Positions 7,955 through 30,216 of a stretch of DNA of 50,589 nucleotides are shown one piece after another. The notes under the pieces were generated by a model. That model was not told where the DNA came from and did no database searches. It was given only the letters and a program-made list of their open reading frames with translations. The translations under genes and the position numbers were made by a program. Location of the stretch: contig JAJDDD010000015.1 in the NCBI GenBank assembly GCA_029260495.1, positions 1-50,589 on the forward strand. Reading direction: 5' to 3'. Each line of letters starts with the position of its first letter. Positions within the stretch are counted from its first letter, which is position 1. The DNA comes from Phycisphaerales bacterium. Its GTDB lineage: Bacteria > Planctomycetota > Phycisphaerae > Phycisphaerales > UBA1924.

Positions 7955-10900
7955 ATGTTAGATGTGAAATCTACAATACTGCTTCTCACTTTGATGACCG
8001 GCGTGACATTAGCCAGCAGTTCAGAACCAGCGCGCGGCGCACCAATCGTAGAGCAGCGTGACTACTTTTCAAGCGTCACGACAATCGATGGCGAACCTCT
8101 GATTTTGAAGGCAGAGCTGAATTACGACAACGATCCGAATCTGGATCCGGCTCCAATCGCAGTAGTGATGCACGGATTCACCCCATCAGCTGGAAACTTC
8201 GGCAAAGTCAGAGACAATGCAGAACGGCTACGAGACTCAGGCTTCTTTGTCATTTCCGTCGCGATGCGAGGCCGCGATGGCAGCCAAGGTGTCCGAGATT
8301 CCGGTGGTGTTGAGATCCATGATATTTACGACGCTGTTGAACATTTCAAACTGAGCCATGCAGCCTTCGCCGATGGCTCCAACGTTCATATCACGGGCTA
8401 TTCAGGTGGCGGTGGTAATGTCATGTCCGCGCTCACCAAGTTTCCTGATTATTTTCGTCTGGGCTCGTCATTCTTCGGCATGTCCGATTATGGTCTCGAC
8501 ACGCAAAACGGGTGGTTTCAACATGGAGCAAACGGCGGCCCCAATCCAGACCCCGATACGCACAAGGGAATACTGATCGACGACGTTGGAGATCCCCGGC
8601 TGAATGACCCGGTGGTCACCGACCGATACCGCGCACGCGCCTCCAATCTCGCCTCAAAGAATAATCCGTACAGTGAAATTCACCTCTTCGTCAACTCCAG
8701 CGAAACAACGAGCCCGCCGAGCAATCATATTTCATACCTCGAATGCGCACAAGAAAATGAAAGTTTTCCGGGAGAGTTTGACAATATCCACCATCATCTC
8801 GGCGACATGAGTTGCGTAGATTTTAACGGAAATCTTGAGTGCGAACTCGAAGAGGTTCAGTACTGGGATCATGGTTTTCTAGACGAGTTTTCGCAGCCCG
8901 CCGCCGAGTCGTGGTACATAGAAAAATTGCGAAACGGCCTGATTCCACAACCAGTACTGAATAGTGAAGACGAGTTGTATGTCGCAGGGTTCGTCAAGAC
9001 GAAACCCTTCACGCTTTGGCTGGGAGATGGCCAGAGCTCGGCTGGCACGCTGCGATACAGCCTGAGTTCTCATATGAAGACATTCTCGCTCAGCCTACCC
9101 TTTAATAATGACGACCTAAGCAGCCAGGTTTGCCTGCCGAACCCGCCGCCGGCTGCTCCATCAGTTAATGTCGGAGTTCTCACGGTCGATACCTCTGACA
9201 TGGCCGGCCGTATTGTCCAGGTGCGAATCAACAACGAGATCACCGAGGAGTTCTTTGCGAGCAGCGAATATGAGTGCGAGTTGAAAGTGGGCGAAACCCT
9301 TCGGATTCACCCCAAAGACACACCTATTGGCCATTGGAAGTTTGACGAACCAGATGGTGACATGGCGAACGACTCCGGGGGCTTCCAGAACCATGGCACT
9401 CTTGTAGGGCTTTCGGGTTCGCCGTTCGATTTCACGATCGGGAGCGTCATTGGCAAAATTGGTCGTGCCCTTGAGTTTGACGGGATCGATGACGTCATCG
9501 AGCTCCATACTATAGACGACACAAACCCGCTGATGCTGGCGAAATCTGACTTTACCATCTCAGTCTGGATATACCAATCAAATGGTGATGGCGATCCTGC
9601 GCAGCGCATCATCGAAAAATCCGATGGCCCCAGCAGCGCGAACGGTTACAGCCTCTGGATCGACCGCGGCAGCATCGGCGTTTCTGTCAACGGTGACAAC
9701 GCTCTGAAGATCCTGAATCCTGGGATCTACGGACGGTGGTACCATCTAGCAGCCACGATGACCCAAAACCAAGGTCACATCTACATTAACGGCGAGCCTC
9801 AGGAGTTGATTCTGCACAACCCCACCCTGCCTCCCCCCGGAGCCATTACAACGATGCGCATCGGCAGCCGCACCAAACAGTCTCAGCCGAATAGAGCATT
9901 CAAGGGCCGAATGGATGACCTTCGAATCTACGACTTTGCTCTAGGAGCAGAGGAAATCGCGAGTCTGGGTGCTCCTCCCATTGCTCACTGGAAGCTTGAT
10001 GAAACGCACGGCACTATGGCCAGCGACTCCGGCGATTTTCAAAATTTCGGTGTACTAGATGGCCCGTCAGGAGCGCCATTTGATTTCGATACCGCCGGAG
10101 TAACCGGCAACATCGGTCGGGCCTTGGAATTCGACGGCAATGATGACATAATCGTGCTCGACGAAATCAACAGCACCAATCCGTTGATGTTGGCGAACTC
10201 AGACTTCTCCATCTCGGTCTGGGTATACCAGGAAATGGTTGGAACTGAGCTTGCGCAGCGGATCGTCGAGAAGTCCGATGGACCCAACAGCACGAACGGC
10301 TACAGTCTTTGGATCGATTTGGTCAGCATTGGCGTGTCCGTCAACGGGAGTACTGCGCTCAAGATTCGGAATCCAGGGATATATGGAAGGTGGTTTCATC
10401 TTGCCGCATCAATGACCGCCGACAAGGGATACATCTACGTCAATGGCGCTCCTAGAACTTTGATCTGGAATCACCCCGCATTGCCTCCCGCAAATGCGCC
10501 GGCGTCAATGGTGATCGGCGGTCGAGCTGATTCGGAAACGAGGCATTTTCAGGGACGCCTGGATGACCTTCGGATCTATAGTTGCGCTTTGACAAGAGAA
10601 CAGGTTAATCGCATTCTTGAGGAACCGCCCGTAGCTCATTGGACATTCGACGAAACGAGCGGGAATACTGCTGGCGATGTGAGCGGGCAATCCAGCCACG
10701 GAACTCTTCAAGGACTCACGGGAGCGCCATTCGATTTCACGATCGGAAGCGTGACCGGTAAGATCGGTCGGGCCCTTGAGTTCGACGGGGATGACGATGT
10801 CGTGGAGTTGGGCTTTATCGATGATGCTAACCCCCTGATGCTGGCGGACTCGGCGTTCACCATCTCTGTATGGGTATACCAGCAAGATAACGGTGGTGAT

Positions 10901-15240: not shown

Positions 15241-16313
15241 GCGTCTGATTCCGGGATCGTAATGAGAACACTGCTCGCGAGACCCTCACGCATCCGTTCG
15301 TGCAGCGAATCGTTATCAAGACCCCCAACAATGCGCTCCATCTTCCGTAGTGCGCTCTTGCGAGGAAAAGCGAGGTGGAACACCGGATCACCGGGCGCAA
15401 CCGATGGAATGGTTGTCATGCCGAGGATAATCCCGTTGTGCGGCGCCTTGATGATGTTGAGCTCGGCGCCGGTCAAGTCGGTATTGGTGGCGAGGGGATC
15501 GTCCTTTTCCACGGTGTCTCCCGGCGCCACATGAAACTCAAGAAACCCTCCGCGTGTCGCCCGAATCCACTTTGTTGCGTCAACTTCGATGCGATAAGGA
15601 GGTTCCTCCGGCTTGCCTTCGACCATTTCCAGGTGTTTGAGACAGTTGACGATCCCTCGAACGGCGTACTCCACCACGCCCGGCTCCACTTTCCATACTT
15701 CACCTGCCTCAAGAATCAACGTGGCGCAGCCGGCGTCACATGCCGCATTTCGCAGGGAGCCCTTGGGCCCCTTGGCCGAAACGATCAACCCGGCGCCAAA
15801 TGCTCTGGCAAATGACGCCACCCGCTCGTCAGTCATATCTGCACGAACATTCGGAAAGTTTGTGCGCCTGACTGCGGCAGTGTGCAGATCGATGCCAAAG
15901 TCGCATCGCTTTGTAATCTGCGTGAAGAACGATGCAGCGATGCGGCTGGCAAGACTGCCTGTCTTTGACCCTGGGAATGAGCGATTGAGATCCCGTCGAT
16001 CAGGTAAATACCTGGTGTGTCGCTCAAACCCAAGAATATTGACGACTGGCACAAGTACCAGCGTGCCAGCGACTATTTCAAAGGGTGGCTCTTTGATAAT
16101 CTGCCGAATGGCGCCGGCGCCATTGATTTCATCGCCATGCACTGCCGCCGTGACGCAGACAGTGGGGCCTTCACGGCGCCCGCGCCAGACATGAACAGGG
16201 ATTGTCACGTCAGCGCCCAGGTAACTCTCAGAAAGCGAGGCCGCGAAGGACGCCCGCGACTGCGGCTGCACGGTGGAACCGAACCATTGAGATGGATCGT
16301 CATCTTTGGGCAT
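15237..16313 (-). CDS. succinylglutamate desuccinylase/aspartoacylase family protein
   Basis: The 358-residue protein belongs to the AstE/AspA zinc-carboxypeptidase-like family. Zinc ligands are visible as AAVHGDEINGAG (His and Glu) near residue 58 and GIDLHTAA near residue 140; LNRSFPG is the family substrate-binding Arg segment. A biotin-lipoyl-like C-terminal beta domain (~260-330, FLEFHVAPGDTVEKDDPLA) follows, as in many stand-alone family members. Such enzymes cleave amide bonds to glutamate or aspartate. It lies between rimK and mgtE with 1-nt and 4-nt overlaps. RimK/retropepsin/AstE-like trios are a recurrent neighbourhood, read as a ligase with trimming enzymes; the actual substrate is unknown. 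Confidence 0.85.
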   Translation of the reverse strand: MPKDDDPSQWFGSTVQPQSRASFAASLSESYLGADVTIPVHVWRGRREGPTVCVTAAVHGDEINGAGAIRQIIKEPPFEIVAGTLVLVPVVNILGFERHTRYLPDRRDLNRSFPGSKTGSLASRIAASFFTQITKRCDFGIDLHTAAVRRTNFPNVRADMTDERVASFARAFGAGLIVSAKGPKGSLRNAACDAGCATLILEAGEVWKVEPGVVEYAVRGIVNCLKHLEMVEGKPEEPPYRIEVDATKWIRATRGGFLEFHVAPGDTVEKDDPLATNTDLTGAELNIIKAPHNGIILGMTTIPSVAPGDPVFHLAFPRKSALRKMERIVGGLDNDSLHERMREGLASSVLITIPESDA

Positions 16314-17518
16314 CAGGCGGTCTCCAGATCCTCAAGAAGCTGCGGGTCAAGCTTCTTTGCCTTGACCCTGCGTTTCCGACGTTGTTTTTCCGGAATTAAA
16401 TCGCGCATGCCATCAAACTTACCATAACACAGCAACTTGTCGCCTGCCTCCAGCTCCCTGCTTCCCTTCGGATTTGAAATGACAGACGTGCCGCGATGCA
16501 AATTAAGAACAACAAGATCACGTTCCCGCAAACCGGAATCACTGATTGCTTTGCCGACGAACTCTGAGCCCTCCGGTATCAACAGGTCAACAACGCCATA
16601 GCCCTTCGAAACAGTAAGTCGCTGTCGAAGGTCAAGTTCGGGAAAGTTCACCTGACCGGCCATGTATTCGACGATGGCGCCGGCGATATCCAGCCCTGTC
16701 GCCCCTTCTATGCCCTCAAGTCCCGGCGAAGAGTTGACCTCCATGATCTGTGGCCCATCATTGCTTTCAAGCATATCCACGCCAGCGACGCGAAGACCCA
16801 TGATCTGCGCTGCGCGCACCGCAGCCTCTTCGAACTTCGGCTCAAGCTGCACACGCTCTGTCGTTCCCCCGCGATGGACGTTGCTTCGAAACTCATCCCC
16901 TTGCGCAGTGCGCCGCATTGCTGCAACTACTGCATCGCCCACAACAAAGGCGCGAACATCGCGCCCTTTGCTTTCCTTGACGAATTTTTGAACAAGGACG
17001 TTCTGCTTGGCGGTCTGGAGCGTCTCGATGATCGCTTCTGCTGTCTTCGTTGTTTCGGCGAGGATAACGCCGACACCCTGCGTTCCTTCCAGAATCTTGA
17101 TGATGATGGGGGCGCCACCCAACCGCGTGATCGCAGGAAGCACATCCTGGCGATCTCGCACGAATGTTGTGTGCGGGATGCCAATGTCGTGGCGGCTCAG
17201 AATCTGCAGTGATCTGAGCTTGTCGCGCGAGTTCATGATGCCGTTTGAGGTGTTTGGTGTATAGACGTCCATCTGCTCAAACTGACGCACAACAGCGACA
17301 CCGTAATATGTAATCGAAGCGCCAATTCGCGGAAGAATCGCGTCATAGTCGCTCAGTTCACGAGAGCGGAAATAAAGGCTCGGCTCACCCTCTTCGAGAT
17401 CCATGCCGAACCGGAGTGTGTTGAGCACCTTCACGCGGTGCCCGCGCGCTTCAGCCGCTTGACGAAGACGCCGAGTGCTGTAGCAGTTTGGCGCAGTGGA
17501 AAGGACGGCGAGCTTCAT
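16313..17518 (-). CDS. rimK: RimK-family ATP-grasp ligase fused to a C-terminal RCK_C (TrkA_C) domain
   Basis: The 401-residue protein starts at the ATG at 17518 (overlapping the rimB stop by 4 nt); a longer frame runs back into rimB. Residues 1-290 are a RimK-type ATP-grasp ligase: pre-ATP-grasp Rossmann part (LSTAPNCYSTRRL), SRDKLRSLQIL, the GTQGVGVI phosphate loop, QKFVKESKGRDVRAFVVG and the metal site IMEVNSSPGLEGIE. Classical RimK is about 300 residues and adds glutamates to ribosomal protein S6. The extra ~100 residues (VVDLLIPEGSEFVGK...LEAGDKLLCYG) match the RCK_C fold found in K+ channels and transporters, followed by a basic tail. The peptide substrate here is unknown. A near-identical paralogue lies at 45303-46508. 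Confidence 0.9.
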   Translation of the reverse strand: MKLAVLSTAPNCYSTRRLRQAAEARGHRVKVLNTLRFGMDLEEGEPSLYFRSRELSDYDAILPRIGASITYYGVAVVRQFEQMDVYTPNTSNGIMNSRDKLRSLQILSRHDIGIPHTTFVRDRQDVLPAITRLGGAPIIIKILEGTQGVGVILAETTKTAEAIIETLQTAKQNVLVQKFVKESKGRDVRAFVVGDAVVAAMRRTAQGDEFRSNVHRGGTTERVQLEPKFEEAAVRAAQIMGLRVAGVDMLESNDGPQIMEVNSSPGLEGIEGATGLDIAGAIVEYMAGQVNFPELDLRQRLTVSKGYGVVDLLIPEGSEFVGKAISDSGLRERDLVVLNLHRGTSVISNPKGSRELEAGDKLLCYGKFDGMRDLIPEKQRRKRRVKAKKLDPQLLEDLETA

Positions 17519-18015
17519 GGCGTCTCCTTGTTCGGGGTTCGGCGTTTTATACTGGAGTTGCTGACGACATACAGTCTCGATGGATCCACAATGAAGTCGC
17601 CGTCGAGCGCGGTCCGGCCGACAAGCATTCGGCACAGCATCCCCTTGCGACAGACCAGACTCAGTTCAATCCGACGCTGGACAGGGCCGAGCTGCATGAC
17701 GGTTTCGACCACCTGTCGGCGCTGACACACTCCGCTGCTCGGTTTGACCTCTGACTCGCGCATGAGCTCGGCTTCGATCCACACGCTCTTGCGTTTGGGA
17801 CGTTCTCTGACAACCACTTCAAACCGCAGCCGACCGTCTTCCAGCTCCTGAATCTCGTGAACATGGATGGCGCTGGTTCTGGCGCCAGTGTCGATCTTTG
17901 CGCGCACGCGCATGATGCCCCATTCCGGAAGCGCAATGACCTCGCGCCAGCCAATAGTCAGTTGAGGCGTCGCGGGTGCGTCTTGAGTTTGGAGTCGGCT
18001 CGCCATGGTTGTCAT
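17515..18015 (-). CDS. RimB-like retropepsin-type protease (ATP-dependent zinc protease family)
   Basis: A 166-residue protein of the COG4067 type. The single active-site motif AKIDTGARTSAIHV (residues ~38-52) is the DTGA signature of retropepsin-like aspartic proteases, which work as dimers; the C-terminal MLVGRTALDGDFIVDPS is the family's second conserved block. In Pseudomonas, RimB acts with RimK and RimA. Here it overlaps mscK upstream and rimK downstream by 4 nt each, so all three are probably translated together. It probably trims or reverses what the RimK ligase adds. The start could also be Met4. Confidence 0.82.
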   Translation of the reverse strand: MTTMASRLQTQDAPATPQLTIGWREVIALPEWGIMRVRAKIDTGARTSAIHVHEIQELEDGRLRFEVVVRERPKRKSVWIEAELMRESEVKPSSGVCQRRQVVETVMQLGPVQRRIELSLVCRKGMLCRMLVGRTALDGDFIVDPSRLYVVSNSSIKRRTPNKETP

Positions 18016-22013: not shown

Positions 22014-22778
22014 CTACGCCGAGCATGTCTTCCGACGGAGGCGGAGTAGCAGGTCATTCAGTCCTTCGCGCGCCGAAGGTTGATTGGGCAATGTTGACAT
22101 CCGGCCGGCCTCTTTGAGTTCGCACTGCAAACGCGAGTACTCAGTCTCATGGAAGGACACATCTGCGTCCGAGAGAGGTTCATGCTCGCATCCCTCAATC
22201 TTTTTCGCGATGAGATCAGGCAGGTGCGGCAGGTGATATGTTTTATTCAAACTGACCAGGTTTGCCTCTACTCTTCCAGTCCGCATGAGGTAAATGCCTG
22301 TCAGCAATACCCGATAGACGTACAGCAGAGGTTTGATCATCGGCCGCTCCTCCTTCATGAATAGATCCCATTGGTTTCGAGCAAATCCGACGTAGTGATG
22401 AATGTGATGCCGAGTGATGCATGCTTTGCCAAGATCAATGAGTTCTTCATGCTCCACCGACGTATGAATCACTAACGGCGACAATAGTTGCTCTAACACA
22501 TAGCCGTTTCGTTTTAGCATGAGTTGAAAAAACTTCTTCGCGTCATGGGTCACCATATCGATTTCCCGGCCATCACGAACCTCGCAATGCGTCACCGTTT
22601 GCGAAGGCGCAGCAAGCCCGAACAGCTCATCCCGGCGCATTAAGTGAACACCCCGGATGTCAAAATCAGAATCCCTGGAAGGGAACCCGTACAGGTGCGC
22701 TCCGCTCACTGTAGCGAACACCAACTGCCGTGGATGGTCCGACACAACCGAATTGAGAAGATCTTCGGGTTCAATCAT
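22014..22778 (-). CDS. RlaP-family nucleotidyltransferase, second of a tandem pair
   Basis: A 254-residue protein of the RlaP family (RNA-repair-pathway DNA polymerase beta-type nucleotidyltransferase, PF10127). The signature is SGAHLYGFPSRDSDFDIRGVHL (residues ~26-46), with the paired catalytic Asp residues in SDFD, and a candidate third Asp in EIDMVTHDAKKFF. Helical segments typical of the family follow (LEQLLSPLVIHTS, HHYVGFARNQWDLF). Its ATG shares one base with the stop of the preceding paralogue (TAATG), so translation is coupled. The family is named for its neighbourhood with rtcB/rtcA; probable role is adding or replacing nucleotides on damaged RNA ends before ligation. It is the last gene of the RtcR-linked operon. 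Confidence 0.88.
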   Translation of the reverse strand: MIEPEDLLNSVVSDHPRQLVFATVSGAHLYGFPSRDSDFDIRGVHLMRRDELFGLAAPSQTVTHCEVRDGREIDMVTHDAKKFFQLMLKRNGYVLEQLLSPLVIHTSVEHEELIDLGKACITRHHIHHYVGFARNQWDLFMKEERPMIKPLLYVYRVLLTGIYLMRTGRVEANLVSLNKTYHLPHLPDLIAKKIEGCEHEPLSDADVSFHETEYSRLQCELKEAGRMSTLPNQPSAREGLNDLLLRLRRKTCSA

Positions 22779-23698
22779 TATTCAAGCGCCTGAACTGCAG
22801 CGACACGAAGATTGAACAAAAATTTACTAACGGCAGCGATATTTGGCTCGGCTGGAAGCGGAGATTGATCCACCGCGGCGTCAATGACTTGAACCAGCTC
22901 TGATCGCAGTTGTATCACGTCATTCCAGTCGCAATCCCCTCGTTTGATCGCGAGAAGCTCCTCGCGTTCCTTCGTCGGAACGACAACATCGAGTTCACCA
23001 CTCCTAATCAGGCTAACTCCAATACGGAGGATCCGAATAAGATGCATCGCATGTTTCCATTTGAAGACGCCACCGTGCTCTCTCGCCCTGCTCATTTTTT
23101 CAAACTGTGAATTAGCATAGCCGACAAAGGTCTGGTGCGCCCGTCGAGATAGAAAGGCGCCACTTCGCCTCAGCCTGTCCAGGTCCGTACAAACTTTCGG
23201 CGCACACAACTCAACACACGGGCTATACAAAGTCTCGAGCACCGTCGGATTCGCCTTGAGCGCCAGTTTGAGGAATTTCTCAACTTCCCACAAACACAGC
23301 TGGTCCTGATCGTGCACGAGCTGTGCCGGCGCTCCGACAAGGGAGAAGTGGACACCTGGACCAGACAGATAAAACCCACGGCGATCAAAGTCTGAATCTT
23401 CATCAGCAAGGTCTTGTGCGCGAGAGCCAACAACCGCAGAAAACATGACAGAGAGTTCATCAGCCAGAGGCAGCGCCCCTTCCATACGAACGACCGCGCA
23501 CGCCTTCCTTGGCATATTCAGCTCTGTGCCATGGCATTGATTGATTACAACGTCAATAGTCTCACCATGCGGATCGCTCGCCAATGTGCCGAGAGTTCCC
23601 GCAGGCAGTATGCAATCATCACTCACCTTCAACGCCTGCAAAAGTGCGACCCTATTCGACAGCACCGAAGACAGCTTGCAAGCGGCGTCGTTACCCAT
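22778..23698 (-). CDS. RlaP-family nucleotidyltransferase, first of a tandem pair
   Basis: The product is 306 residues from the ATG at 23698, which has AGGAG six bases upstream; a TTG two codons earlier is less likely. An N-terminal extension of ~80 residues precedes the nucleotidyltransferase core: SAVVGSRAQDLADEDSDFDRRGFYLSG holds the two catalytic Asp residues. The expected third acidic residue is in LCLWEVEKFLKLALKANPTVLETLYSP, where Glu is present rather than Asp. It is clearly a paralogue of the downstream gene but divergent and longer. A 186-bp gap separates it from rtcA, the largest in the operon, so a second promoter or processing site there is possible; none was recognised. Confidence 0.87.
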   Translation of the reverse strand: MGNDAACKLSSVLSNRVALLQALKVSDDCILPAGTLGTLASDPHGETIDVVINQCHGTELNMPRKACAVVRMEGALPLADELSVMFSAVVGSRAQDLADEDSDFDRRGFYLSGPGVHFSLVGAPAQLVHDQDQLCLWEVEKFLKLALKANPTVLETLYSPCVELCAPKVCTDLDRLRRSGAFLSRRAHQTFVGYANSQFEKMSRAREHGGVFKWKHAMHLIRILRIGVSLIRSGELDVVVPTKEREELLAIKRGDCDWNDVIQLRSELVQVIDAAVDQSPLPAEPNIAAVSKFLFNLRVAAVQALE

Positions 23699-23884
23699 GC
23701 CCAACTCCTATTCGGTGACTGACCTGCACACATAATGCTGGCACGCAGCAGTTCTGCAGCCGAATCCAGCGTTCGGTCGTCCTTGTGTAAGAAGGAAGAA
23801 CCGCGCCGATCATAAACCAGTCACCAGCAATTCGCATGTCATCGGATTTCATCGGCATCGTATCACTGCATCCTGATTAGCTAC

Positions 23885-24904
23885 TTACGAATGCACACGC
23901 ACGGTCACCGTGCGATCGTCAGCCGGCGCCATATGAACTTTCACATCCAGGAACCGTTCTATGACAGCTGCGTTCGTCTCAGTATGCTGAGAGAGCGGAC
24001 CAGTCCGAAAGCTCCCCCCGCCGGCGATTGCAAGTGGAAGTATGAGCTGGTCTGCGAGATGGCGCCAGACAGGAACACCTGCTGCGAGGTATCGGCGCAC
24101 GTCACCCGCTGTGCGGGAAGCGACTCGCTCCGCACTGACGCCACGCTCGCCAAAGCCTGTAAAGACCTCATGCGCATGTTTGCAGACGATTTCGACGGTC
24201 AAAATGTTGCCCGGACCAACTTCGTCATCGAGTAGCTCGATATGTAAATTTCCTTCGGACCAACCAAGTTTTTCTCCGATGACCGCTAGTTCTCGCTTTG
24301 CAATCTCGCCGGACAGTCCCGCAACTGTTGCAACTGCATATTGTTCAACCACGTCGCCGCGTTCGAGTAGATCAATAGGCTCCAGCTGGTCCACAGGATT
24401 AACATCGACGCTAATGCGCCCGCCACCCGCCGGGTAGAACCCATGCTTCTTCAACTCAAGCACAACCGTCGGTCCCATTCGCTCAATCAAGGGGAGGAAG
24501 GCGCGGCCCAAAAAGTGAACACTAGGCGCATAGATATTGTGCGTGCCGCCTTCAATGGTGATCACCGAGGGCTCAGACGCCGTGATCAGCGCGGGCAATA
24601 CAGTTTGCAATACGAGCGTTGTGCTTCCTGCGGTGCCGATCGAGAAATGGTACTCGCCGCCGGATACGGACCCCGGCAAGAACTCGATCACATCCGAGCC
24701 CACGCTGGCGCCGAGGACATCGCCAGCGCAAACATCACGAGCTGCGTTGACCGAAGTGAGGTGTTGGCGCATAAGCCCAGGCTTGGAGCGGTTGGCGCGG
24801 ATATTCTCGATGCGAAACGGCTGGCCCGTGATCATCGACAGTGTCAGCGCACTTCGGAGGACTTGACCGCCGCCTTCGCCGATTGACCCGTCAATCTTAA
24901 TCAT
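23885..24904 (-). CDS. rtcA: RNA 3'-terminal phosphate cyclase RtcA
   Basis: The 339-residue protein is collinear with RtcA: IDGSIGEGGGQVLRSALTLS at the N-terminus, the RANRSKPGLMRQHLT segment, GTAGSTTLVLQT, the GGTHNIYAPS motif, and GGGSFRTGPLSQHTETN near the C-terminus with the His that is adenylylated in the family. RtcA uses ATP to turn RNA 3'-phosphates into 2',3'-cyclic phosphates. In Salmonella this is also needed to make the ligand sensed by RtcR. It overlaps the rtcB stop by 8 nt (ATG inside the last rtcB codons), showing tight coupling with the ligase. Confidence 0.96.
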   Translation of the reverse strand: MIKIDGSIGEGGGQVLRSALTLSMITGQPFRIENIRANRSKPGLMRQHLTSVNAARDVCAGDVLGASVGSDVIEFLPGSVSGGEYHFSIGTAGSTTLVLQTVLPALITASEPSVITIEGGTHNIYAPSVHFLGRAFLPLIERMGPTVVLELKKHGFYPAGGGRISVDVNPVDQLEPIDLLERGDVVEQYAVATVAGLSGEIAKRELAVIGEKLGWSEGNLHIELLDDEVGPGNILTVEIVCKHAHEVFTGFGERGVSAERVASRTAGDVRRYLAAGVPVWRHLADQLILPLAIAGGGSFRTGPLSQHTETNAAVIERFLDVKVHMAPADDRTVTVRVHS

Positions 24905-26396
24905 CCGCTTTGTCTCCGTCTTTGATCACAAACCGCGCTTCCAGTCGCGCAACTTCACTGGCCAATCCTGCAAGCTTTACCGAGCGCAGCACTTCTTCGA
25001 AGTCTTTATACGCTTCCGGCGCCTCGTCGATCGGGTAGTTCCGGCAGTTCGTCAGGATGTCACACTCATTAAACGATGTGTTCACTGCTGCTTGATCGAG
25101 ACTCCGCTTTGCGGCCTTTCGACCCATCGCTCTGCCTGCGCCGTGATTGACGCTGTAGCATGATTTCTCAGCGCCCGGGTCGGCGACCATAACGGCCGAT
25201 CCCGATTGTGGGTTGCCAGGCAGCAGGATCGGATGTCCCGTCTTTTCAAACGGCGTTCCGGTGAGCGCGTGGTGCCCAGCTGGAAATGCTCGCGTCGCTC
25301 CTTTCCGATGGACCCATTGAGGTATCCTGTCGACGATCTCTTTCCGCGCGATATTGTGGCTAATGAAATACACCAACCTCCCGTCGATACCCGGGAACAC
25401 TTCGCGAAACGCCTCCAGCACGAGCGCATTAATCAGTAGGTGGTTCACTGTTGCAAAGTTAGCTCCGAGAGCCATGTCATCCAGATAAGCGTTCGCTTGT
25501 TCGGTTCCAAGCGGCGCATGCACGAGTTTCAGATCATCTCCCGGCAGCGGGATTCCCCACCTTTCAAAGTGCGTCTCCATTGATTGGAACTGTCCTTGGG
25601 CCAGATCGTGGCCGAACCCTCGCGAACCACAGTGCGACAGGAAGGCAACTGCGCCATCGCGCAGCCCGAAGACCTCCGCGGCGTGGCGGGCCCGCTCTGA
25701 CTCATCAACGCGCACGACTTCGCACTCGCCGAAATGGTTTCCGCCGCCGTATGAACCGAGCTGGCGGATTTTGTTCGGAAACCGCTCAACAAAGCGTTTA
25801 TCCACTTTCAAATGTTCGAGCCGCACCAGTAGCGTGTCGGTTGATTCGTCGTGACCTGTGTGCATGCTATCTTCGCAACGCGCCGCCCATTCGACCGGGA
25901 TGCCCAGCTCTGCACAAACCTGAGGTGATGCTCCTTCTGTGACAATGCGTGATCCGAGTTCATGCGACACTGCTCGCGATTTGGGCGCGTGCCGTTGTCC
26001 ACGTCCAGCTCCCGTTGGTGTCCGCTCGCAGATTGCGTTGATGATCGCGCGCCGCGTTTTCGCATCACGAACCGCGTTCTCATCGATGTCGATTGCAAGA
26101 AGACTCATTGAGCACTTGATGTCCACGCCGATGGGACCGGGATAAATGTGACTCGGGCTTGCCATCACACACCCAACTGGCGTTCCGTAGCCAACGTGGG
26201 CGTCGGGATTGAGCACGAGATGAGAAACACCTGGCGCCATCGCAGAGTTAATCGTCTGCCTGATGCACCCATCGTCGAAGGTGTTTCGGATCGCTTCAGT
26301 GCCGATCACTGTGACCGGGCGCTGATCATCGGGAAGCGTGAGCATTGCGGTGGCTTCACCAGTTTCAATAAAATTTCTCACCGACATATTCGACAT
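24897..26396 (-). CDS. rtcB: RNA-splicing/repair ligase RtcB
   Basis: A 499-residue GTP- and Mn2+-dependent RNA ligase that joins 2',3'-cyclic-phosphate (via 3'-phosphate) ends to 5'-OH ends. Conserved pieces: GVDIKCSM (residues ~90-97, metal-binding Asp and Cys; the usual text is DIGCGM), GSYGGGNHFGE (~215-224), SHCGSRG (~254-260), SHN (~347) and NHGAGR (~417-422) with the guanylylated His. It is longer than the E. coli enzyme (~408) and closer to archaeal/eukaryal length. The ATG at 26396 is chosen because AAGGGAG precedes it by six bases; an in-frame TTG start at 26429 would begin only two bases beyond the tRNA and has no ribosome site. Confidence 0.96.
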   Translation of the reverse strand: MSNMSVRNFIETGEATAMLTLPDDQRPVTVIGTEAIRNTFDDGCIRQTINSAMAPGVSHLVLNPDAHVGYGTPVGCVMASPSHIYPGPIGVDIKCSMSLLAIDIDENAVRDAKTRRAIINAICERTPTGAGRGQRHAPKSRAVSHELGSRIVTEGASPQVCAELGIPVEWAARCEDSMHTGHDESTDTLLVRLEHLKVDKRFVERFPNKIRQLGSYGGGNHFGECEVVRVDESERARHAAEVFGLRDGAVAFLSHCGSRGFGHDLAQGQFQSMETHFERWGIPLPGDDLKLVHAPLGTEQANAYLDDMALGANFATVNHLLINALVLEAFREVFPGIDGRLVYFISHNIARKEIVDRIPQWVHRKGATRAFPAGHHALTGTPFEKTGHPILLPGNPQSGSAVMVADPGAEKSCYSVNHGAGRAMGRKAAKRSLDQAAVNTSFNECDILTNCRNYPIDEAPEAYKDFEEVLRSVKLAGLASEVARLEARFVIKDGDKADD

Positions 26397-26430
26397 TGGG
26401 AACTCCCTTCTCACACTACTGCTCAACAAG

Positions 26431-26505
26431 TAGCCCCGGCAGGATTCGAACCTGCGACTTCCGCGTTCGTAGCGCGGTGCTCTTATTCCGCTGAGCTACG
26501 GGGCT
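26431..26505 (-). tRNA. tRNA-Arg(ACG), inside the RNA-repair operon
   Basis: A complete cloverleaf: acceptor AGCCCCG/CGGGGCT, D-stem GCTC/GAGC, anticodon stem CCGCG/CGCGG with loop CTACGAA (anticodon ACG), T-arm GCAGG-TTCGAAT-CCTGC, discriminator A. All stems pair fully and U8, A14, U33 are in place, so it should be functional. CCA is not encoded. It lies between slipin (43 nt after the slipin stop) and rtcB (34 nt before its ATG), on the operon strand. In E. coli, Arg isoacceptors including ACG are the target of the anticodon nuclease colicin D. Confidence 0.96.
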
Positions 26506-26518
26506 TCGATATTCAATA

Positions 26519-26546
26519 GCCGCCGTCCGCTTTCACGGACGGAGGC
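26519..26546 (-). promoter_or_regulatory. hairpin between slipin and tRNA-Arg
   Basis: The 11-position stem (GCC, one T/C mismatch, CCGTCCG against CGGACGG, CGGC) has a TGAAAG loop and begins 2 nt after the slipin stop. There is no T-run, so termination is doubtful. It could protect the upstream mRNA end after the tRNA is cut out by RNase P, or mark a processing site. Confidence 0.55.
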
Positions 26547-26548
26547 GT

Positions 26549-27685
26549 TCAGTTGTTTGCCGACGCCGCCTCACGACGGATCAGGCTGCTGATCTGCTCG
26601 GACAGATCACCTGCGCCGAGCACGAAGGTGGCATTCGCACCCTTCATGATCTCCTGAAGGGCTTCCAGTTCCTTCATCCGGGCGAGCACAGGGTTCTCCG
26701 CGAGGAGCTTGGCCGTGTTCGCCTGGCTGCGCGCCGCCGCAGTCTCCTCGCGGCGCCGAATGAGGTTCGCCTCCGCTTGCTTCTGAGCGACGATCACCTC
26801 ATTGAGAATGACCTTCATGTCGCCCGGAAGGATGAAATCACGAAGACCAACACCAGAAATACTGACGCCAAACTCTCCAGTTCGCATTGCAAGCCGGTCG
26901 CGGATCTCTGCGCCCACCTCGTCCTTGTCAGACAAGAGCCGCTCAAGCGTGCGCCCACCGACAGCGGCGCGCAGCTCAAGCTGGGCTTCGCGGTACAGCG
27001 CCTGTGCCCAATCTGACACATCGGTTACGGCTTTAACCGGATCAGTCACGCGATGCGTTACAACGAGGTTCATACGAAGTGTGACCTTGTCGGCCGTCAT
27101 GATTTCCTGGCCCTGGATGTCGGCGACCTGCTCGCGCAGATCAACTGACTTCCACGTGACCTTGGCGCCGCCGAGCCAGTACACGAAAAGGCCTGGCTCA
27201 AGTTGATCGATCAACTCGCCTTCTCGGAAAAGCATGACCCGCTCGTGGGCCTCAATGCGGACAGCCGCGAGCAACTGGGAGGCGCCCCTGAAGTTCATTA
27301 CTGCGTCAATCTTGGAGTGCTCAAGCCGAAGGTCCGCCACGCTATAGCGCTCGACCAAGACTTCGCAATGCGTGTTCCAGAACGCATGCAGGCCGGCAGG
27401 CAGAATCGCTCTCAATCGCCCATCAATCCAGACGAGCGCACGCTCTTGTTCCGTCAGATCGACCACCGTGAGTCGAGAGTTCAACTCGCTGTCACGAACA
27501 AGAATCTTCAGAAGATCATGCTCAAACCGAGGCGACAACACGTCCACAACCTCCACCTGGTTTCGACGTCCCAGGCGCCAAAGTGCGAGCCGACGGTGCG
27601 TGCCAGGCTGCAGCACTTTATGGAGATCGCCATGCCGAAACCACAGACCGATTTCATGCTTCCGTACGCGAGTAGTTTTCAACAT
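26549..27685 (-). CDS. slipin/SPFH (band 7) protein of the RtcR-linked operon
   Basis: A 378-residue SPFH-domain protein. The ATG at 27685 (MLKTTRVRK) follows AAGGAG by 8 nt; an upstream 18-residue extension is unlikely. There is no N-terminal membrane helix, unlike typical slipins. Instead the N-terminal half holds three related units: GLWFRHGDLHKVLQPGTHRRLALW, then VWIDGRLRAILPAGLHAFW and LFREGELIDQLEPGLFVYW (the last opens the SPFH domain proper). The SPFH core (QVADIQGQEIMTADKVTLRMNLVVTHRV) and a charged coiled-coil (AQKQAEANLIRRREETAAARSQANTAKLL) follow. Slipins of this type are known companions of rtc genes, but their role in RNA repair is unclear. It is the first protein gene downstream of the leader. 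Confidence 0.9.
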   Translation of the reverse strand: MLKTTRVRKHEIGLWFRHGDLHKVLQPGTHRRLALWRLGRRNQVEVVDVLSPRFEHDLLKILVRDSELNSRLTVVDLTEQERALVWIDGRLRAILPAGLHAFWNTHCEVLVERYSVADLRLEHSKIDAVMNFRGASQLLAAVRIEAHERVMLFREGELIDQLEPGLFVYWLGGAKVTWKSVDLREQVADIQGQEIMTADKVTLRMNLVVTHRVTDPVKAVTDVSDWAQALYREAQLELRAAVGGRTLERLLSDKDEVGAEIRDRLAMRTGEFGVSISGVGLRDFILPGDMKVILNEVIVAQKQAEANLIRRREETAAARSQANTAKLLAENPVLARMKELEALQEIMKGANATFVLGAGDLSEQISSLIRREAASANN

Positions 27686-28062
27686 GAGTCCAACTCCTTT
27701 CAAAATGCAGTGAGATTTGGAAGAACAAGAAACACTCAATGTGAGCCGAGAGGTCCAACTGTGCTTTCGCCCGCTTCGACGGCGGGGCTCGGCTTAAGAT
27801 GCGTCAGTGAGCACACGGCCGGGAGCGTTCGCGCCGCATCGCCAGGGCGCATAGGCGCCCAAGGTTCAGCGGAGCGTTCGTTCGCGGGCGTCGCGCTGTG
27901 GCGCGTCGGTATCCGCCAAGCCGCAAGCCGTGTTGGCGGCGCCGGCTTGCATCCGAATCCCAGCGCAAAGCGCCGAGGAACATCAGCAAAGCCAACAGCG
28001 TCCACGCAATCGGGCGCCTCTCGACCCACTACTGCCAGTTCCTAAGACTGGTGAGACTAACC
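27686..28062 (-). other. operon leader, part proximal to slipin
   Basis: This is about 375 bp of G+C-rich sequence between the tRNA-like elements and the slipin start. No protein gene is supported; open frames on both strands have no domain or ribosome site. The only clear signal is the slipin ribosome site (AAGGAG at 27694-27699, minus strand). It would be transcribed from the sigma-54 promoter as part of the leader. Confidence 0.5.
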
Positions 28063-28106
28063 GGTCCCGGTCGGGGGGATTCGAACCCCAGGCTGTGACA
28101 CCCTTG
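28063..28106 (-). ncRNA. tRNA-like element A: isolated T-arm and 3' acceptor strand
   Basis: On the minus strand a T-arm (GGGG-TTCGAAT-CCCC) is followed by CCGACCGGGACC, resembling the 3' half of a tRNA. The 20-odd bases before it (GGCAAGGGTGTCACAGCC) do not fold into an anticodon arm with a U33 loop, and element B ends directly upstream, so no D-arm or 5' acceptor strand exists. It is a truncated tRNA or a tRNA-like 3' module. Confidence 0.5.
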
Positions 28107-28111
28107 CCAGG

Positions 28112-28184
28112 TTTGCGATGTCGGAATCGAACCGACAACCTACGAGCTAAAGCCCGTCGCTCTACCAGTTAGAGCTAATCGCGA
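28112..28184 (-). ncRNA. tRNA-like element B: tRNA-Lys(UUU)-like with a 6-nt anticodon loop
   Basis: The 73-nt minus-strand sequence folds as a cloverleaf: acceptor TCGCGAT/ATCGCAA (one C-A mismatch at 2-71), D-stem GCTC/GAGC, anticodon stem ACGGG/CTCGT, T-arm GTCGG-TTCGATT-CCGAC, discriminator A. The anticodon loop is CTTTAG, six bases. Adding one T would give C-U-UUU-A-G, the anticodon loop of tRNA-Lys(UUU). Position 14 is T instead of the near-universal A. With three departures it is unlikely to decode normally. It may be a decaying tRNA-Lys or a retained tRNA mimic. It lies in the leader of the RtcR operon. Confidence 0.7.
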
Positions 28185-28280
28185 GCGATCTTTCTGTTGT
28201 TGGAGCCCGTGGTCACGAAACACACCAACCCAATCACAGCGTGAGGGCCGCGAGTCGCCGGATGACAGAAAAGGATCGAA

Positions 28281-28355
28281 TGGATGCCGAGGGAATCGAA
28301 CCCCCTGCCGAGGCGGAGTCTTCTCCCGCCCCGGCGCCGCCTGATCGTGCGATCC
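28281..28355 (-). ncRNA. tRNA-like element C: tRNA-sized RNA with extended anticodon-like arm and no D-arm
   Basis: The 75-nt minus-strand sequence has tRNA-shaped ends: 5' GGATCGC against 3' GGCATCC plus A (5 of 7 pairs), and a T-arm GGGGG-TTCGATT-CCCTC directly before the 3' strand. The centre is a continuous 11-bp hairpin (GCCGGGGCGGG against TCCGCCTCGGC) with a 7-nt loop AGAAGAC, placed exactly where an anticodon arm would be. The loop lacks U33, and no D-arm can form in the 13 bases before the hairpin. This combination of a tRNA acceptor and T-arm with a long replacing stem recalls bacterial Y-RNA-type tRNA mimics, but no Ro60 gene is in the window. It starts about 53 nt after the predicted transcription start. 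Confidence 0.6.
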
Positions 28356-28418
28356 AAATAAGTGAGTTTGCAATCCCGAGTTGTCAAAGAGCCAGGGTGT
28401 GTTGCCCGCACTGGATAA

Positions 28419-28434
28419 TGCACGTGGCGTGCCA
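28419..28434 (-). promoter_or_regulatory. sigma-54 promoter of the RNA-repair operon
   Basis: On the minus strand TGGCACG-CCAC-GTGCA has the -24 GG and -12 GC separated by exactly 10 nt; the consensus is TGGCACG-N4-TTGCW, with only the first T of the -12 block differing. Predicted transcription start is near 28408, leftward into the tRNA-like elements and slipin. A sigma-54 promoter is what an RtcR-type activator requires, and rtcR is divergent next to it. Confidence 0.82.
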
Positions 28435-28534
28435 AGTTTTTCGCATCTGGTCGAGAAGAGCCAAAATCACCGGTGAGGCAGCAACTGAGCCGTTTATTGC
28501 CATACGGCACATTCTCAGGCAACTATTGTGACAA

Positions 28535-28546
28535 GATAAATATATC
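28535..28546. promoter_or_regulatory. candidate RtcR upstream activator site 1
   Basis: The perfect inverted repeat GATA-AATA-TATC lies about 130 bp upstream of the predicted sigma-54 start, a usual distance for a bacterial enhancer-binding protein. The arms are short, so chance is possible. Confidence 0.4.
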
Positions 28547-28561
28547 CTAATGTATCGTCTT

Positions 28562-28572
28562 TTATCCGATAA
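28562..28572. promoter_or_regulatory. candidate RtcR operator 2, abutting the rtcR -10
   Basis: The perfect palindrome TTATC-C-GATAA sits directly before the rtcR -10 box and about 155-165 bp upstream of the sigma-54 start. It shares GATA/TATC half-sites with the palindrome at 28535, so a single protein could bind both, activating the operon and repressing rtcR. Confidence 0.45.
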
Positions 28573-28578
28573 TATAAT
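28573..28578 (+). promoter_or_regulatory. rtcR promoter -10, predicted leaderless start
   Basis: A perfect TATAAT ends 6 nt before the rtcR ATG, so transcription should begin at or within a base or so of the start codon. No Shine-Dalgarno sequence precedes the ATG. A good -35 was not found (TGTATC at 16 nt is weak), which suits an activator-dependent or weak constitutive promoter. Confidence 0.6.
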
Positions 28579-28584
28579 TCAACC

Positions 28585-30216
28585 ATGTCCACGCAATACA
28601 CCCATTCCAGCGATCGGGACCGGCGACCAACCGTGGTGCTGGGCATTCTCGGAACCACCTTGGACGTCGGAAAGGGCTCCAAACGCTGGATGCGGTGGCG
28701 CCCGACCGTGTCACTGTGTCAACACGACGATTTCCTAGTGGACCGGCTCGACCTTCTTCACAGTCGACGAGCCGCCTCTCTCGCAAACACCATCGAAGAA
28801 GACATCAAGTCGGTGTCGCCAGAGACCCATGTCGTCAGGCACATTCTTGACATGGATGATCCGTGGGATTTCGAAGAGGTCTACGGCGCCCTGCATGACT
28901 TTGCCACGACGTACCCCTTCGACCCTGAGCGTGAGGACTACCTCGTTCATATCACAACGGGTAGCCATGTCACACAGATTTGCAACTTTCTGCTCACTGA
29001 AGCTCGCTACTTCCCGGCCCGCCTTATCCAAGCCAGCCCGCCGCGCCGCGCAGAGGATGGAGCGGGAAGATTCAGCATCATCGACCTTGATCTTTCTCGC
29101 TACGACCGGCTCGCTTCGCGCTTTGAACGCGAACTCACGGACGCCATCGCCTCGCTTAAGGGCGGGATCAAGACCTGTAACCTCGCTTTTAACAGCCTGA
29201 TTGAGCGCATCGAACATGTCGCGGCGCGTACAATCGATCCTATACTGATAACGGGCCCCACCGGCGCTGGAAAGTCGCATCTGACTCGCCGGATCTACGA
29301 GCTCCGCCACCATCGTCGGCTCGTTACAGGCCAGTTCGTAGAGGTGAACTGCGCAACGCTTCGAGGCGACGCAGCCATGTCCACGCTGTTCGGCCACAAG
29401 AAGGGCGCCTTCACGGGCGCGATCAATGAACGGCCTGGTCTGCTGCGAAGCGCCGATGGAGGCATGCTATTTCTCGATGAGATCGGCGAGCTTGGCCTCG
29501 ATGAGCAGGCAATGCTCCTTCGCGCCGTGGAGGAAAAGCAATTCCTGCCTCTCGGGGCCGACACTGAGGTCTCGAGCGATTTTCAGATCGTCGCCGGAAC
29601 CAACCGCAATCTGGATGACCAAGTGAGAAATGGCGCCTTTCGCGATGATCTGCTTGCGCGCATTAACCTCTGGACCTTCGAGTTGCCGGCGCTCCGCGAT
29701 CGTCCCGAAGACATTGAACCAAATATTGAATACGAGCTTGAGCGCTTTGCTCGCGATCGAAACCAACTCGTCCGGTTTAACAAGGAAGCTCGTCGTAAAT
29801 TCATCGAGTTTGCATCGTCTTCCAGCGCGATATGGCCGGGCAACTTTCGGGATCTCAGCGCCGCCCTCACTCGAATGGCTACACTCGCGCCCGGCGGCCG
29901 CATCACGCTTGATGTTGTTGATGAAGAAACAAGCCGGCTCGCGCACATCTGGAGTGACAAATTTAGCAAGCCGGATAATTTAGCGCTCGCCCGCTTTCTA
30001 TCTCCCGAACAGATTGAAGAGATCGATCTCTTTGATCGAGTCCAACTCGATGCAGTGCTCGAAATCTGTAGCCAGTCCAAATCAATGTCCGAAGCTGGCC
30101 GCAAGCTCTTCGCCGCGTCACGCACAAAGCGAAGCTCCGTTAACGATTCAGATCGGCTGCGTAAATATCTTGCTCGTTTCGGTCTGAACTGGGCGATACT
30201 CAGCTCGCATTCATAG
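28585..30216 (+). CDS. rtcR: RtcR, CARF-domain sigma-54-dependent activator of RNA repair
   Basis: A 543-residue protein. Residues 1-185 are the divergent CARF ligand domain (VVLGILGTTLDVGKG...VHITTGSHVTQICNFLLTEAR). Residues ~190-430 are the AAA+ ATPase of enhancer-binding proteins: Walker A GPTGAGKSH (~225), KKGAFTGA (~273-280), the sigma-54 contact loop, Walker B MLFLDEIGEL (~293), and the arginine-finger region DDLLARINLW. The C-terminus (~480-540) carries a DNA-binding helical domain. In Salmonella, RtcR binds 5' tRNA fragments ending in cyclic phosphate, oligomerises and switches on rtcBA. Here it is divergent from slipin-tRNA-rtcB-rtcA-rlaP-rlaP across a sigma-54 promoter. Length and motifs are intact. 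Confidence 0.96.
   Translation: MSTQYTHSSDRDRRPTVVLGILGTTLDVGKGSKRWMRWRPTVSLCQHDDFLVDRLDLLHSRRAASLANTIEEDIKSVSPETHVVRHILDMDDPWDFEEVYGALHDFATTYPFDPEREDYLVHITTGSHVTQICNFLLTEARYFPARLIQASPPRRAEDGAGRFSIIDLDLSRYDRLASRFERELTDAIASLKGGIKTCNLAFNSLIERIEHVAARTIDPILITGPTGAGKSHLTRRIYELRHHRRLVTGQFVEVNCATLRGDAAMSTLFGHKKGAFTGAINERPGLLRSADGGMLFLDEIGELGLDEQAMLLRAVEEKQFLPLGADTEVSSDFQIVAGTNRNLDDQVRNGAFRDDLLARINLWTFELPALRDRPEDIEPNIEYELERFARDRNQLVRFNKEARRKFIEFASSSSAIWPGNFRDLSAALTRMATLAPGGRITLDVVDEETSRLAHIWSDKFSKPDNLALARFLSPEQIEEIDLFDRVQLDAVLEICSQSKSMSEAGRKLFAASRTKRSSVNDSDRLRKYLARFGLNWAILSSHS

Follow-up and report, generated by a model that had tools for sequence, protein, structure and literature searches.

A candidate RtcR/sigma-54 tRNA-damage operon of a Phycisphaerales bacterium that may both repair tRNAs and restock copies altered at position 37

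The locus described here bears on what the bacterial enzymes RtcB and RtcA protect, and against what. It lies in a 50,589-nucleotide stretch of DNA, hereafter the window, from a Phycisphaerales bacterium (GenBank assembly GCA_029260495.1, contig JAJDDD010000015.1, positions 1 to 50,589 of the forward strand; the genome comprises 3.2 Mb in 22 contigs and is 96.8% complete). There, rtcR on the plus strand is divergent from a minus-strand row of slipin, tRNA-Arg(ACG), rtcB, rtcA, rlaP and rlaP, as the original prediction had stated, and every named protein gene is intact by profile search. Arrays of spare tRNA genes that differ by one base and lie beside rtc genes suggest a definite target, namely the G36-G37 step in tRNAs that decode CNN codons, which makes the role of RtcB and RtcA directly testable. 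We see an even chance that the locus is an RtcR/sigma-54 tRNA-damage operon of the slipin type that repairs tRNAs and restocks copies altered at position 37, escape from a nuclease being the most likely cause of the alteration. The operon is probably switched on by broken tRNAs. Its features are as follows.

28585..30216, plus strand: rtcR, CARF sensor and sigma-54 AAA+ activator (NF038308 802.2 bits, cut-off 650; PF06956 274.2 bits)
28419..28434, minus strand (read 28434-28419): sigma-54 promoter TGGCACGCCACGTGCA, one mismatch to TGGCAC-N5-TTGC[AT]
26549..27685, minus strand: slipin, SPFH/Band 7 (PF01145 110.9 bits); open reading frame from TTG 27739, likely ATG 27685
26430..26505, minus strand: tRNA-Arg(ACG), second copy, loop CTACGAA with A37 (ARAGORN; Rfam 67.6 bits; fold)
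24897..26396, minus strand: rtcB, RNA ligase (PF01139 336.6 bits); open reading frame from TTG 26429, likely ATG 26396
23885..24904, minus strand: rtcA, RNA 3'-phosphate cyclase (PF01137, RTC, and PF05189, RTC_insert; NF003246 above cut-off)
22778..23704, minus strand: rlaP, copy 1 (PF10127 106.3 bits; DSDFD motif by eye)
22014..22778, minus strand: rlaP, copy 2 (PF10127 164.4 bits; DSDFD motif by eye)

The tRNA gene of the row, described in the original prediction as a real tRNA, is recognized as one by ARAGORN and Rfam and folds as a full cloverleaf with a 7-bp acceptor stem and a 7-nucleotide loop bearing ACG (-33 kcal/mol, z -3.0). The proposal that the locus co-produces tRNA species needs refinement: this gene is a diverged second one, with 69% identity to the genome's other copy (G000:C16), and its loop reads CTACGAA instead of CTACGGA, the base at position 37 being changed here and mostly likewise in relatives. 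When 178 tRNAs outside the operon were collected from four genomes (G000, which is the window's own, G054, G413 and G121), each arrayed anticodon, apart from Arg(GCG) of G121, was also found among them, and arrayed tRNAs were 52-84% identical to their cognates there. As the same anticodons are present elsewhere, the arrayed genes of these genomes constitute spare copies.

The arrayed set consists of 79 tRNAs from 25 listed loci, 24 of which contribute; leader elements (see below), three tRNAs with two-letter anticodons and four calls from loci not among the 25 (L095, L133, L138 and L150) were kept apart. The comparison is one of sequences, mostly from metagenome-assembled genomes (MAGs), with isotypes assigned by anticodon. 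G36, which corresponds to CNN codons (Arg, Pro, Gln, His and Leu), is present in 63 of the 79 arrayed tRNAs vs 48 of the 178 outside the operon. Among these G36 tRNAs, residue 37 is A in 59 and G in four arrayed genes, and A in nine and G in 39 outside (Fisher values of 2e-15 for G36 and 5e-15 for A37, both ignoring kinship). The wider arrayed count including leaders is 60 A37 and seven G37, and the Leu(UAG) of L150, outside the 79, is G37. A37 occurs in every group with arrayed G36 tRNAs, namely families f1, f8, f11, f13, f19, f20 and f22, four named loci of Phycisphaerales MAGs and a MAG of a deltaproteobacterium. The switch is also seen within single genomes. For Arg(ACG), 13 genomes were searched and both copies were identified in eight; in seven of them (G000, G054, G043, G041, G331, G413 and G200) the operon copy is A37 and the other copy G37. 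The same holds for Pro(UGG) in seven of ten genomes searched (G054, G413, G105, G121, G230, G307 and G263, the last counted on the sequence of a gene truncated where its contig ends); for G043 no match to the second copy was obtained.

Base 73 is C in all nine arrayed His tRNAs and A in all 20 Leu and all 12 Pro tRNAs, and C1:G72 is found in ten of the 12 Pro tRNAs. We take base 73 and C1:G72 to be charging determinants, and the conservation of base 73 speaks, in the main, for loading with the cognate amino acid, although a number of the arrayed Leu tRNAs belong to class I and lack a long variable arm. Four class-I tRNA-Leu genes (UAG, UAA, CAA and GAG anticodons, 74-75 nucleotides, with a common unusual D-arm) also stand in a row outside the rtc locus of G121 (L332 8339-8710, equal to G121:C4:863838-864209); no tblastn match to the six operon proteins was found in the 19.5 kb read around them.

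The arrays recur across the class. The RtcR CARF family was found in 40 of 397 genomes in a class-wide census, and 36 of these loci were read after three weak ones (G108, G362 and G326) and one cut off (G237) were dropped. ARAGORN called tRNAs on the operon strand within 5 kb in 17 of the 36, with 53 calls in 167 kb. The other strand of these stretches gave none, and both strands of the control flank, which lies beyond rtcR, gave one in 93 kb. The 53 calls comprise 46 array tRNAs in 16 loci and seven leader elements. Because of this strand and flank contrast, and because the window's anticodon is also present elsewhere in its genome, chance placement of housekeeping tRNAs was rejected for the class. 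In one locus outside the census (L034), nine tRNAs are arranged as Tyr, Cys, slipin, Pro, Arg, Leu, Phe, Met, Asp and His, followed by rtcB. As a separate observation, a Planctomycetota MAG has a run of eight ordinary-looking tRNA genes (L110 15-688) that starts out about 3.5 kb away from rtcR on its upstream side and is not on the operon strand but on the opposite one.

Between the promoter and slipin, the original prediction had overlooked three tRNA-like elements, each with a T-arm motif GGTTCGA(T/A)TCC on the minus strand (at 28302, 28133 and 28087).

28281..28357, minus strand: tRNA-like element 1, with T-arm, closing stem and long GC hairpin, without D-arm (T-loop GGTTCGATTCC at 28302)
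28110..28184, minus strand: tRNA-like element 2, with D-arm, anticodon arm, T-arm and an acceptor of about 5 bp (Rfam tRNA 47.8 bits; fold)
28062..28107, minus strand: tRNA-like element 3, with T-arm and small hairpin, without D and anticodon arms (T-loop at 28087)

Judged by their predicted structures, these elements are not ordinary tRNAs. Element 1 (-36.4 kcal/mol, z -2.0) has similar counterparts in L074 and L075. Element 2 departs from the canonical tRNA form (7-bp acceptor, 7-nucleotide anticodon loop), with five contiguous acceptor pairs and an anticodon-arm loop of about 4 nucleotides in the predicted fold, and has no usable anticodon. Element 3 can be aligned in L034, L040, L074 and L075, and its own fold is poorer than most shuffles (z +1.6).

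The leader elements are linked to slipin. This gene is the first found after the promoter in 23 of 113 loci, 22 of which (all but L141) have the leader T-loop motif; none of 48 loci with Rsr first has it, although their leaders are shorter (median 210 vs 789 nucleotides). The D-stem-bearing element, to which element 2 belongs, could be aligned across 22 loci (alignment A2) from Planctomycetota, Lentisphaerae and delta-, beta- and gammaproteobacteria, 18 of them slipin-first and four (L095, L105, L129 and L149) with a cut contig or rtcB first. Pairing amounts to 100% in the D-stem, 97.1% in the anticodon stem, 100% in the T-stem and 82.7% at the inner five acceptor pairs, vs 28.8% at the next three outer acceptor positions; the covariation score is 0.465, vs 0.129 for shuffles and 0.04-0.10 for slid controls. 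The anticodon-arm loop varies in length and sequence. With its covarying cloverleaf, truncated acceptor and lack of a fixed anticodon loop, the aligned element is read as a tRNA mimic rather than a tRNA. The alignment does not include five of the slipin-first loci; a leader model (R1) matches two of them (L070 and L134) and misses two (L066 and L098), L141 having been outside the search. Since R1 picks up ordinary tRNAs as well, and gives weak matches to RNAs of Rsr-type loci, it cannot separate the families by itself.

By position and build, the slipin leader is perhaps the counterpart of YrlA (Rfam RF02553) of Rsr-type loci, a likeness and not a claim of common descent. Both are tRNA-like RNAs in RtcR operons that adjoin the gene of a partner protein. 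Identity with YrlA is unsupported at Rfam thresholds: slipin leaders of five loci fall below the YrlA model (best 26.5 bits in L100; gathering score 69). At the gathering score, YrlA is absent from the window and was found in four of six Rsr-type loci scanned (L036, L054, L088 and L127, not L032 or L061) and not in the slipin-type L113; no Rfam family other than tRNA was assigned to the slipin-linked mimic in the loci scanned. In L036, YrlA (9501-9636) directly adjoins an arrayed tRNA (9637-9709).

Several further RNA features were noted in these loci. The leaders of L099, L113, L125, L129, L137 and L143 contain an extra conserved block upstream of the tRNA-like elements, roughly GGCC..ACGGG..GGGG..CCCCGCCGGTGC..GTATGCCGCC, which is common to beta- and gammaproteobacterial leaders. 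In three Polyangium loci, paired RNAs of about 130 nucleotides located 8-10 kb from rtcR match R1 at 45-52 bits (L107 19657-20063, L112 18198-18619 and L115 19694-20093). Two sub-gathering YrlA matches in L034 (8640-8718 and 8818-8897; E 2e-4 and 8e-4) span junctions of neighbouring tRNAs and would fit Y RNAs as permuted relatives of tandem tRNAs.

RtcR contains the PF06956 and Sigma54_activat domains, with GAFTGA and Walker A motifs in the translation, and its NF038308 score is above the curated cut-off. In these traits, as in its divergent sigma-54 promoter and in having both rtcB and rtcA in the divergent row, the locus conforms to RtcR-type RNA repair operons. The near-consensus sigma-54 promoter of the original prediction was confirmed. 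Of 113 distinct loci, 92 have a corresponding site, with up to two mismatches allowed to the consensus given above, within the first 320 nucleotides upstream of rtcR, vs 2.6 expected from base-shuffled copies, and rpoN was found in the window's own genome. The start codons of slipin and rtcB were picked by eye, each being preceded by a purine-rich stretch, and the tRNA gene sits about 33 nucleotides before the rtcB ATG. The row contains two gene overlaps, one between rtcB and rtcA and one between the two rlaP copies, and a 180-nucleotide gap separates rtcA from the first rlaP. Terminator-like patterns between 21600 and 28600 (eight, vs a shuffle mean of 6.5, sd 2.8) are no commoner than in shuffles and provide no argument either way on a single transcript.

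The closest named loci are those of Phycisphaerae MAGs, with 71-78% identity across the RtcR CARF domain. When gene order around rtcR was compared, as the original prediction had proposed, tRNA genes recurred in the class, whereas the tandem rlaP did not: tblastn found no operon-strand rlaP in 41 relative loci, some on contigs that end early, and one (L033) has rlaP on the opposite strand. On this comparison the tandem rlaP is not a trait of the relatives. By Pfam, Rsr (TROVE, vWA_Ro60) is absent from the window operon, slipin occupying its place, and is confirmed in four relatives.

These data can be accommodated in a scheme in which broken tRNAs would activate RtcR, as suggested by the Salmonella protein, and the promoter at 28434 would fire. 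Salmonella RtcR was shown to bind 5' tRNA halves ending in a cyclic phosphate (PMC7790460), consistent with the statement of the original prediction that it responds to tRNA fragments. Presumably one transcript would then supply the tRNA-mimicking leader, slipin, spare tRNA-Arg(ACG), RtcB, RtcA and two RlaP nucleotidyltransferases. The enzymes might mend cut RNA, and the spare tRNA might restore decoding, since the replacement of G37 by A37 removes the G36-G37 step and an agent acting there would spare it. The agent would most likely be an anticodon-loop nuclease. In some relatives an enlarged array covers the greater part of the CNN quadrant (Arg, Pro, Gln, His and Leu). In vitro, VapC-mt11, a toxin, cleaves the anticodon stem-loop of Arg, Gln, Pro and Leu tRNAs immediately after a GG (PMC6459853), so a nuclease with about this taste exists; that the GG corresponds to positions 36-37 is our own reading.

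A number of observations weigh against this scheme. There is no tRNA call in 19 of the 36 class loci, and the window itself holds a single array tRNA. In 66 further named loci, mostly from other phyla (nine duplicates of census loci having been removed), 13 operon-strand calls in 12 loci, mostly single leader elements, are accompanied by ten opposite-strand calls (eight of them the L110 run) and three in 259 kb of flank. Given this weak strand contrast, arrays are, among the loci compared, a feature of this class and not of RtcR operons at large, being rare outside it. The rows of the tRNA comparison are not independent, as four f19 loci supply 24 of the 63 arrayed G36 tRNAs, and the tRNAs outside the operon were drawn from just four genomes and include the four unusual class-I Leu genes. 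G37 is retained by the operon Arg of G395 and by the operon Pro of G331, G025 and L074, and G73 is present in just three of six arrayed Gln tRNAs. A37 with G36 is also found in 16 of 22 such tRNAs of three phage arrays and one plasmid array, besides the nine of 48 outside the operon. As for the nuclease, Pro(UGG) with A37 still has GG at 35-36, and VapC-mt11 still cut a GG-to-GA mutant of tRNA-Pro14, one base earlier, and in its own host cut just one Gln and one Leu tRNA (PMC6459853). Two PIN matches were found in the window's own genome, with no further nuclease identified there.

The Pro tRNAs are better explained by another reading, that A37 frees newly made tRNAs from m1G37 methylation by TrmD and renders them usable at once in stress. 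TrmD forms m1G37, a modification that prevents frameshifting and has an effect on aminoacylation (PMC5372744, PMC8643618); trmD is present in the window's own genome, and in the four genomes the anticodons of the arrayed G36 tRNAs occur elsewhere with G37, Arg(GCG) of G121 being without a counterpart. Yet RtcR answers to cut tRNA and not to missing methylation (PMC7790460), some array members (Met, Asp, Gly, Tyr and Ser) lack a G37 counterpart elsewhere that would need avoiding, and Phe is G37 in three of four arrays though A37 in four of four copies elsewhere. We regard independence from methylation as possible but doubtful, and of the two causes nuclease escape is somewhat more likely.

It is unlikely that the tRNAs and leader RNAs act together as decoys, soaking up a nuclease or binding RtcR, RtcB or slipin, with no role in translation. 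The truncated acceptor and lack of a fixed anticodon loop suit such a function in the leader elements, and the tRNA-like domain of YrlA was suggested as a competitive inhibitor of a nuclease (PMC7790460). Most arrayed tRNAs, however, retain the anticodon and base 73, that of the window folds completely, and a bait should retain the attacked base rather than lose it. A decoy role is thus likely for the leader and unlikely for the array.

Very improbably, the elements could be processing marks, i.e., tRNA or tRNA-like folds at which RNases P and Z would cut a polycistronic RNA into pieces, with the tRNA sequence being secondary. Their placement between genes (before slipin and shortly before the rtcB ATG) agrees with this proposal, which leaves unexplained the seven consecutive tRNAs before rtcB in L034 as well as the G36 bias, the prevalence of A37 and the kept discriminator bases.

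Hardly probable at all is an origin of the arrays as remnants of phage or plasmid tRNA arrays captured beside rtcB, for 48 of 67 arrayed tRNAs are closer to class-genome cognates, 17 to mobile arrays and two tied (the mobile sample being small), and the mobile arrays checked (three of phages and one of a Nostoc plasmid) lack the G36 bias (6/30, 6/25, 4/16 and 6/20) and have G37 in four of four Pro tRNAs. Besides their share of A37 given above, all four contain a class-I Leu(UAG) and an Arg(ACG) with A37, and the window tRNA-Arg shares 82% identity, across 95% of its length, with the tRNA-Arg of a Caulobacter phage, vs 69% with the genome copy, the two values being from different aligners. A general phage origin was rejected as unsupported by similarity; class-I Leu and A37 are still shared.

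Repair together with restocking of altered tRNAs thus remains our preferred reading. The repair-and-replace response of the original prediction is partly supported: it fits the evidence, and the membership of tRNA genes in such operons is supported within the class. With the spare tRNA and the recurring arrays, it looks as if the cell both repaired tRNAs and restocked altered ones. A broader claim is put forward tentatively, at somewhat less than even odds: RtcR operons of the class might constitute a chromosomal immunity and recovery system, with inducible, nuclease-refractory tRNAs for the CNN quadrant from which the G36-G37 step has been removed, beside repair enzymes, and with a new family of truncated tRNA mimics paired with slipin across several phyla. 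If so, hosts, and not phages alone, keep tRNAs altered in the anticodon loop, and the make-up of an array would be a readable record of the tRNA-cutting weapon facing the lineage.

Among the matches listed from the openly licensed literature, no description was found of tRNA genes inside RtcR operons or of a slipin-linked tRNA-like RNA, which may be described elsewhere. The RtcR-controlled rtcBA and rsr-yrlBA-rtcBA operons of Salmonella and E. coli (PMC7790460, PMC9650030) share with the window rtcR with its CARF domain, sigma-54 control, rtcB and rtcA, and the Salmonella operon likewise carries a tRNA-mimicking RNA (PMC7790460). The window differs in having slipin instead of Rsr, a leader RNA before slipin, a real second-copy tRNA and two rlaP genes. 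Phage tRNA arrays (PMC10264068, PMC11555353) similarly contain redundant tRNAs with anticodon-loop changes relative to host copies, which have been proposed to escape host nucleases through these mutations (PMC10264068), and the three phage arrays checked have Leu and Arg with A37 as in the operon arrays. Here, in contrast, the genes lie on a host chromosome beside repair enzymes, are G36-biased and often have A37 in Pro (9/12).

The trn operon and TrcR regulon of Anabaena also combine a second, normally silent tRNA set, rtcB and slipin under one regulator, with induction by translational stress there: TrcR represses rtcB, a slipin gene and an operon of 26 tRNAs that favours survival under translational stress (PMC10272220). 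The regulator there is a repressor, TrcR, and not RtcR, the genes are in separate operons and on a plasmid, and the tRNAs number 26 (PMC10272220). As a side observation, a RimK and a Zn_protease-family protein (16313-18015) are encoded on the operon strand downstream in the window, beyond an MscS channel, and rimK also belongs to the TrcR regulon (PMC10272220), possibly by coincidence. The occurrence of the same three parts under an unrelated regulator in Anabaena provides independent support for slipin, RtcB and spare tRNAs as a putative working unit.

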